Assembly (NCBI RefSeq): GCF_964204645.1
Contig: NW_027437443.1
Coordinates: forward strand, 53,739-117,738
DNA length: 64,000 nucleotides
Source: Tubulanus polymorphus
Taxonomy: Eukaryota > Nemertea > Palaeonemertea > Tubulaniformes > Tubulanidae
Direction of reading: 5' to 3'
Shown: positions 21,000 to 37,200 of the stretch, one piece after another
Numbering within the stretch: the first letter of the stretch is position 1
Layout: the number at the start of each line of letters is the position of its first letter
Program-made: the position numbers and the translations under genes
Notes under the pieces: generated by a model
What the model saw: only the letters and a program-made list of their open reading frames with translations
Told to the model about the DNA's origin: nothing
Databases searched by the model: none

Positions 21000-21436
21000 T
21001 TACGATAGCTGGGGGTCCAAAATCAAAGATTTGACCCAGTATCCTAGGTACCACCTATAAAAAAAGAACCCCTGTGATCTCAAGGTGGACGATAGCATCA
21101 TCACACCAGCAAGACGAAGCACATAGACTGATGGTACATCATACGAGGACCAACGTGAAGCTTCACTCCTTCTTCCCGTCATCTATCCGTCTATGGAATA
21201 GTGTACCAGAAGAGATATGTGCTGCGTCCTCAGCAGATGCATTCAAGGCTGCGCTCCTCCGGGAGTGGAGCTCCAAATAGATGTGACCTACTCAGCCAAC
21301 ATTGTTTTCTTTTTTTTAAACTGTACATATTTGAATTTTAACCGTAACTGATATCCAGTCCGAGCATCGCTGACAAACGCTGTGGGACAATGCCCAACTA
21401 CAGGTCCTCCACATTACTCTAAAGAAGAAGAAGAAG
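21000..21436 (+). mobile_element. 5'-truncated non-LTR retrotransposon (LINE) 3' end
   Basis: An open frame ending at 21280 reads RTNVKLHSFFPSSIRLWNSV and then PEEICAAS, the pattern typical of the extreme C-terminus of LINE reverse-transcriptase ORFs (R-T-x-x-x-x-S-F-F-P-x-x-I-x-x-W-N-x-x-P). A 3' UTR follows, ending GCTGTGGGACAATGCCCAAC and CAGGTCCTCCACATTACTC, then an (AAG)n tail. The last ~58 bp match the 3' end of the SINE at 35101-35289 almost base for base. The 5' boundary is uncertain. Confidence 0.85.
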
Positions 21437-21646
21437 ATCTCAAATGAAAATGAATACTTTCACATTTCTGTACATTCTTTGCTGAAAAGTGTTTTCCATT
21501 GTAGTTTTATTTCCATGCCTATTGTATAACCATTTTGTTATGTCATGCAATATCATCCTCATCTTTTTATTCCAGACACTATCTATTCAGAAAATTAGTG
21601 GTACATTGATCTAGGCGTCTTTAATTCTGGTAGAGTGCGAATTATT

Positions 21647-34243: not shown

Positions 34244-37200
34244 ATGGTGAGCATTCCGGACTGGTCGAAATTTGCTCGTCTACAGGACGCAGGAAATAAT
34301 CAAACACAATCGACTCAAAGCAAATATTATAAACAACGAGAATACGATGCCATCAGACAGGCGGAAAAACACGGATATTTCTTCAAGCCGGACGTCGATT
34401 TTCTGTTGGAAAGATTTGGCGAGTCCGTTCGTTCGGTCGACATCCGCGATATTCATTATATCAGATATGTTCAACTCGATGGCGTACATCTCCGTCATCT
34501 CGGCGATATAAGCGTATGCATGCGTTTGAGGATATGCGATTTAAGTAATAATTACATCACCAGATTCGACGCTCTCGGGACGTGTCGGCAACTCATCAAA
34601 CTAGATCTACATGGTAATCAGGTGAGTTGGAGATTGACGGCAAAAAGGCAAAGATATGAATTTTGTGCCTCTAAGAAAATGGCGGTGGGGAATTCAGGGC
34701 CCAGTTTCACAAAAAGGATTAAGGCCTAAATCGATTTAAGATAAACTGAATTAATGAAGGAATTAAATCGATTTAAGAGTTAAACCTTTTCGTGAAACTG
34801 GGCCCAGTGATACTACTGCTCTTAACCCTTTCAGTGCGTCTACACCGCAGTGCGGTGTATGAATCGATGATGGATTTTGCTCGTACACCGCACAGCGGTG
34901 TATTGATGTTATCAGTAATTAATTTCTATCTCTATTGAAAGAAAGCAGCACCTGTCAAACGTAGTGTAATAGACCTACTAGTAACTAACAATACACTGCA
35001 CCGCGGTGTAGACGCACTATGGTGGTAATCCCGTTATTCAGCACACTAGGGTGAGATTTTTCAAAATTTTCAAAAAGGCTAAGATATGAATTTGGTGCCT
35101 GTCCTGTGGCATGGTGGATAAGGTGTTTGACTCACAACCGAGAGGTTGAGGGTTCGAATCCTAGTGAAACCATGCATTCAGGCAGGACACATATCAGTGT
35201 TCGTCGACTCACTGATTAAAAAAAAAAAAAAAGGCGCTGTGGGACAATGCCCAACTACGGGTCCTCCACATTACTCTAAAGAAGAAGAAGCCTCTAAGAA
35301 AATGGCGGTGGGGAATTCAGTGATATTACCGCCCTTAAGATGACAAGGATTTAATAACTTTCTTTAGAGCAGCCTAACCTGGGCCCAGTTTCACGAATAA
35401 GTTAAAGCTTAAAACGGTTAAGTTTGAATTGTTGTCCTCATTGAAAACATGAAGTAACCAATAGCGATTACACCAAAAATTTGAGTTAAACTCTTTTGTG
35501 AAACTGGGCCCTGACCCTATCCAATGCTCATTCCCCTTAATCGCTTGTTTACTCACCAATTCCATGCACATCTATTATCTTCTACAGATCGCCTTCGTTC
35601 CGAGTATAGCTTTTTGGTCCGGGCTGAAACACTTGAAGATACTTTACCTGCACGACAATCCGATCGGACGTATCGAAAACATTCATTATCTCGGCGCTAC
35701 TCGTCGCCTGTCGTTGTTAACGCTACACGATACGCCGCTCAGTTTAAAGAAGAACTATCGACATCACGTCGTTAACAGTATTTGGTCGTTGAAAGCGCTG
35801 GATAATTTCGTCATTTCCGACGAGGAGATCATCGAAGAATCGGCGTTCGGCGGAAGGTTTTCAACGATGCATCCGGCTTTCTATATTAATTTATCACCCG
35901 CGATACCAAAGGTATGTTACGTAATCTGCATTGAGTTTATCGCGGAGAGTCGAACTTGCTTTAGTCATTCATAGGTGGGACTACACCATTATGACTTTAT
36001 GAAGTTTTACAGTAATAAGAATTTCTCGTGTCTAATCCCTGCCTTTTCACCAAGCTAGAGATTGTTAAAACCCTCAAATTTCACATTCATCCTCTCGGAA
36101 ATGTCAGGATGTCTTTCCCCCATTCTCTGCACCATGTCCAGCCTCTGCTGTGTCTAACTTATTCTTTTGTTTCGTCATTCCGTAGGATTCGACTTACGTA
36201 GAACACTTGACAATCATACAACATTTGATCAGTGAAATCAATCTGATAATGGCACGTCACTCACCAGTTCTTATAATACAGCGCTATATCAGAGGATATC
36301 TAACTAGAAAGCGCTATAAACTAGTTCAGGACACTAGAGTTTGGTAAGTATTTCTTCAAATCTTGATTATCCAATTCAACTTACAGTAAATCACAAACTT
36401 CGATCTAACATTACATTTCAGTTTGAGAATTTGATCTTAATCTTGATTACCTTGAACATTCATCTCAAATAGTCCGGCTTCTTATTATTGTAATCTATAG
36501 AAATTTTTTTCTCTATCAGGGCTGCGATCATTATCCAGAGAAAGTGGCGAGACTACAAGGGTCTACCTCAGTTAACCGCGCGATCGGAAAGAATTCCTCC
36601 CCCGCCGAGTTCATCGCCTGTGAATTGCGAAGGAGAACCGAAAATATTAAAGAATGAACCAGAAAATCTCACTCTAGATTCACCGCTAGCAGAAGAGACA
36701 GTCCGCCCGAGTTCAACGCCAGCGCTTAGCGAAAAACAATTACAAGGAGACGTGAGTGAAAACTATTAATAAAACACAGGGTTGACGATAATCTATAGGG
36801 AACCTCTTGTTGATAACAACGAAAAAATAATATCGAGTCCGAAAATCTTCCCTAGTAGTTCATTCGACCTTTTGACTACATTCTATTAATAGTCATGTTC
36901 AGGAATAATGCCGATAACTAGTCGAAACGTCGATTAAACTACTAGCTGTAGGAAAGATTTTCGGACTTGATATAATTTCTTCCTTATTTCTGTGGGATAC
37001 TCTATAGATGTGATCTGATTTCAGTTGATCAACTTATTTCGTAATGTTTCAAGACATAGATATCAATTCCTACGTTTTGTTTTTCCAGGGAGAACCACGA
37101 CCGACACCTGAATTAGGTTACGTTCGATCGGCCGGCTCAAAACCATCATCCCGATACAAATCATTACATATCAACTTGAGCAAACTACAGACCAGTACTT

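Follow-up and report, generated by a model that had tools for sequence, protein, structure and literature searches.

A SINE in the window (the whole 64,000-nucleotide stretch of Tubulanus polymorphus DNA analysed here) ends in the same sequence as a LINE copy lying in the same window. SINEs depend on LINEs, and the mobilising LINE is usually recognised by the 3' tail that it has in common with the SINE. In all probability, this SINE combines a pol III-type head, a small hairpin in the body and an A-rich linker with a tail acquired, by a swap of tails, from a CR1/L2/Jockey-like LINE of the same genome, by which it would now be moved. Bases 35235-35289 of the SINE and 21378-21432 of the LINE were identical at 54 of 55 positions in a gap-free alignment (E 2e-24), bearing out the sequence-only reading, in which the last ~55 bp of the SINE had been equated with the 3' end of a LINE. 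A 23-base core of this tail was found at only two sites in the window, one in the SINE and one in the LINE, the number of matches expected from shuffles of the window being zero, even with 3 mismatches allowed. In the genome (268 Mb, 77 contigs), a 20-base core gave 24 matches with no more than one mismatch, and the reversed control gave none. The coordinates of the features are listed below.

Features of the SINE and of the LINE copy in the window (positions in the window; all on the + strand)
Feature	Position	Strand	Remarks
5'-truncated LINE copy	21084..21436	+	same family as L033-L036, from comparison with longer relatives
LINE protein C-terminus, 53 residues	21119..21277	+	corresponds to residues 1058-1110 of the full-length protein, at 98% identity
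Target-site duplication GATCTCAA, 8 bp	21076-21083 (5' copy), 21436-21443 (second copy)	+	flanks the LINE copy
LINE 3' tail and (AAG)n common to the SINE	21376..21436	+	
End of another repeat, outside the LINE	21000..21069	+	69-bp piece 100% identical elsewhere, often in inverted pairs
SINE head, pol III-type promoter	35101..35192	+	A box TGGCATGGTGG 35107-35117, B box GGTTCGAATCC 35151-35161
SINE body	35193..35217	+	7-bp inverted repeat ATCAGTG...CACTGAT; variant TTC at 35200-35202 marks the LINE-tailed subfamily
A-rich linker	35218..35232	+	junction of body and LINE-derived tail
LINE-derived tail in the SINE	35233..35290	+	predicted two-stem hairpin, then (AAG)n
Possible target-site duplication GCCT, 4 bp	35097..35100, 35290-35293 (second copy)	+	weak, chance-level length

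Genome-wide, 27 copies of the tail were counted, of which 12 lie in SINEs (eight of them complete at the 5' end and four 5'-truncated), 11 lie in LINE copies and four are tail-only stubs. No unrelated repeat family bearing the tail was found among these copies, all of which were assigned; the tail is therefore limited to the SINE/LINE pair and is not the third independent repeat, present in unrelated families, that the sequence-only reading had named as its possible undoing. A chance match, or a third repeat family inserted at both sites, has virtually no probability and is refuted by these counts (none expected in shuffles, none in the reversed control, 27/27 copies assigned). The stubs (L038, L041, L042 and L043; ~50-60 bp) are extreme 5' truncations of the LINE or SINE, and L041 is flanked by a 7-bp duplication, AATTCAC. 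The number of LINE copies may be overestimated by one, because L010 (G000:C20:152288) and L011 (G000:C2:12600289), 99.85% identical over 3.4 kb, are probably one locus present twice in the assembly (C20 is a small contig).

The SINE extends from 35101 to 35289, or from 35097 to 35290 if a possible 5' duplication, GCCT, is included; other full copies start 4 bp further 5', with TCCT at the place at which the window copy has GCCT (35097-35100). Its A and B boxes lie at tRNA-like spacing and are kept in other copies, and to this extent the initial description of the element as tRNA-headed holds. However, the head was not recognised as a tRNA by ARAGORN and had no Rfam match at E≤1, so it is from the boxes that the label derives. 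The predicted fold of the head RNA is an extended hairpin, with no cloverleaf. Copies of the family are dispersed, have no ORF and include 5'-truncated members, and most are flanked by duplications of 4-7 bp, some of which are within chance. A different repeat (L063, L065, G000:C3:17179742, C7:11111963 and C7:9171861) contains, within a longer unit, the SINE head over its first ~98 bases; L063 and L065 have 367 bp in common at 95.6% identity, flanks included, and this repeat looks like the SINE head carried by another element.

The LINE copy in the window comprises, contiguously, the last ~70 codons, the 3' UTR and the tail, and is 89-94% identical to longer copies. It had initially been placed at 21000-21436; the end of this interval was correct, but the start was not, the first 70 bases belonging to another repeat. 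The copy had also been credited with a C-terminal reverse transcriptase (RT) motif. A coding remnant is indeed present, but it consists of only the last 53 amino acids, beyond the RT domain, with no RT core. The presence of GATCTCAA on both sides and colinearity with the other copies, including the full-length LINEs, identify the coding remnant and the tail as a single insertion, and not as the two separate insertions against which the sequence-only reading had cautioned. The 69-bp piece of the repeat preceding the LINE was identical at about 30 listed places, many of them forming inverted pairs separated by ~1.0-1.1 kb, with two further pairs spanning 143 bp, a pattern that recalls a DNA element with terminal inverted repeats and a short palindromic derivative.

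Recovery of a full-length LINE, which had been proposed as a check, yielded three copies of ~3.78 kb (L033, L034 and L035) that were 99.6-99.8% identical, with open frames and an RT region 100% identical and free of stops; the SINE copies have the tail of this LINE without its ORF. The L033 frame, of ~1110 residues, gave matches above the cut-off to endonuclease, reverse transcriptase and PHD finger models (PF14529, PF00078 and PF00628). The endonuclease and RT lie in a single frame, the 3' end is (AAG)n and the duplications are up to 8 bp long. Judging from these sequence features, the element is a CR1/L2/Jockey-like non-LTR retrotransposon. L036, which is ~94% identical to L033-L035 and interrupted by stops, represents a second lineage. 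The near-identity of the full-length copies points to recent copying, and the LINE may well be active today. Other LINE families of the genome (L119-L138) end in (AAG)n, (CTGATA)n, (GAT)n, (ACGAT)n, (AATTC)n or (ATCAT)n, with a long hairpin-like stretch 5' of the terminal repeat in L136-L138.

Outside the window, nine of the 11 SINE copies had an identical 52-nt tail and the other two differed from it by small indels. The tail of LINE copy L044 matched this common SINE tail at 51 of 52 positions, the sole difference being an A instead of a G at the first base, whereas the tails of the full-length LINEs had three differences beyond the first base, including two within the inner stem. These three further differences indicate that the SINE tail was derived from an older subtype of the LINE (the GCCC/CTAC variant, as in the window copy and L044) rather than from the near-identical full-length copies. 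For the same reason, together with the difference at the first base, the full-length LINE is not proven to be the current partner.

The tail RNA was predicted to form two stacked stems in the window SINE and the full-length LINE, with a poorer fold in the decayed window LINE. Relative to shuffled sequences, the fold energies gave unremarkable z-scores of -0.6 for the window SINE and +0.3 for the window LINE, and one of -1.8, which is only mildly favourable, for the full-length LINE. Pairing was maintained in 92% of the hairpin pair cells, far above the values for slid versions, and no compensatory base changes were found in the tail hairpin. Given these modest z-scores and the lack of compensatory change, the hairpin is consistent with stringent recognition but is no proof of it. 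In zebrafish L2 LINEs, the tail hairpin is bound by the part of the protein that lies between the endonuclease and the RT (PMC4176376); the corresponding part of the LINE protein studied here contains a PW motif and, after it, a strongly basic stretch beginning at residue 477. The present LINE resembles the stringent LINEs ZfL2-1 and ZfL2-2 in having an endonuclease and an RT, a basic PW-containing region between them and a 3' hairpin, but differs from them in that a PHD finger is present in the same reading frame and that binding of the tail is only predicted (PMC4176376).

The SINE may be mobilised by stringent-type recognition of the LINE tail. Its RNA would be made by pol III, and the 3' hairpin and AAG repeat of this RNA would mimic the end of the LINE RNA, such that the SINE RNA could be bound by the LINE protein and copied, through target-primed reverse transcription, at further genomic sites. 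Such reverse transcription fits the short duplications and 5' truncation observed for both elements: duplications of 4-8 bp flank many SINE and LINE copies, although several are only 3-4 bp long and compatible with chance. It is improbable that the tail is idle and that the SINE is moved by another LINE through relaxed recognition of an A-rich or AAG repeat. Another LINE family (L119-L121, L133 and L134; about 45% amino-acid identity) does end in (AAG)n, preceded by a different hairpin, and the weak hairpin evidence also leaves room for such a route. However, the full 52-nt tail is nearly unchanged across the SINE copies, and the LINE families of this genome differ in the sequence 5' of the repeat even where the repeats are similar.

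In a larger and older subfamily (hereafter referred to as SINE-B, the LINE-tailed copies being referred to as SINE-A), this head and body are joined to a different tail. The SINE-B tail contains a predicted hairpin, CTGGC...CTTCA...TGAAG...GCCAG, and terminates in GGTAGAACTAG(AACTAG)n. In a census of the body motif (n=51), all 11 copies with the TTC variant had the LINE tail, whereas none of the 40 copies with other bodies was in the list of LINE-tailed copies. Mean divergence from the respective consensus was 1.9% for SINE-A and 7.1% for SINE-B. SINE-A copies grouped beside young SINE-B copies in the tree, with low support (0.53, from ~120 bp). At the linker junction, copies with the old tail read ATTTAACAACAAAAGTCC and LINE-tailed copies ATTAAAAAAAAAAGACGC; the LINE has CAAACGC at the same place. 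Most likely, as far as can be judged from these sequences, the LINE tail replaced the older SINE tail once, and this change of tail would most likely have entailed a change of partner LINE. The swap itself probably occurred by template switching within the A-rich linker during reverse transcription, a usual proposal for such chimeras (PMC3272025; PMC5729268).

Identity between the two tails does not, by itself, give the direction of transfer, and the LINE might have obtained its 3' end from the SINE. Such a transfer is very improbable: the LINE tail is missing from the majority of the SINE family, namely from its older copies; each of the six LINE copies retrieved by protein comparison (84-100% identity), representing two lineages ~6% apart, ends in the tail; and the tails of SINE-A vary very little and correspond to a single LINE subtype. 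It is less easy to set aside, though still unlikely, that the SINE inserted beside the 3' end of a LINE and that the resulting chimera, produced by read-through, spread as a unit with no template switch. The A-rich junction might represent the 3' terminus of a SINE, itself rich in A, lying directly against a truncated LINE tail, but it is identical in all copies, with no extra bases or duplication. An origin of this kind would alter the birth event of the SINE, not its present working. On the favoured reading, that of a tail swap by template switching, the older (AACTAG)n tail would likewise have come from a LINE. No LINE donor of this tail was found by similarity and pattern searches, and none of the (AACTAG)n-tail places without a SINE head contained LINE coding sequence (in both cases, with 14 (AACTAG)n places left out of the reading); nor did the tail match the 3' ends of 20 other LINE copies. 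We tentatively suggest, at slightly less than an even chance, that the SINE lineage abandoned a failing partner LINE and survived by adopting the tail of a LINE family in which intact copies persist.

Pairs of SINEs and LINEs with a common 3' end have long been known, and 58 of them, including UnaSINE/UnaL2, HpaI/RSg-1, SURF1/CR1-4_SP and TguSINE1/CR1-X, have been tabulated in a review (PMC3747384). Like these, the pair described here has a pol III-type head, a ~50-bp tail identical in sequence to a LINE 3' terminus from the same genome, a terminal simple repeat and a predicted hairpin, but its sequences are different, it ends in (AAG)n, its copy number is low (12 SINEs and ~11 LINEs) and its retrotransposition is a prediction. 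In Nematostella, Nve-Nin-DC-SINE-1, -2 and -3 are, likewise, subfamilies of one SINE family with the tails of different LINEs (PMC3747384, Table 1); each of those tails has a named partner LINE, whereas a LINE was found here for only one of the two tails. HaSE1 and HaSE2 of Helicoverpa armigera similarly have a head and central domain in common and two different 3' regions, for which template switching has been proposed, but the 3' region of HaSE2 comes from a mariner DNA transposon, whereas the second tail in the present family is a hairpin with a repeat end (PMC3272025). In the literature on tail switching, nothing closer was found than the Nematostella and HaSE1/HaSE2 SINEs and the other cases cited.

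The SINE/LINE pair confirms a known principle without changing it, its modest addition being two tails of different age together with intact copies of the LINE. Two such tails on one head and body make a change of partner within a single family likely. If this switch is real, one small genome contains the two tails together with intact LINEs and dated copies, so that switching could be traced there, and the 12 SINEs, ~11 LINEs and ~40 older SINEs would form a small natural set for dating the change of partner.
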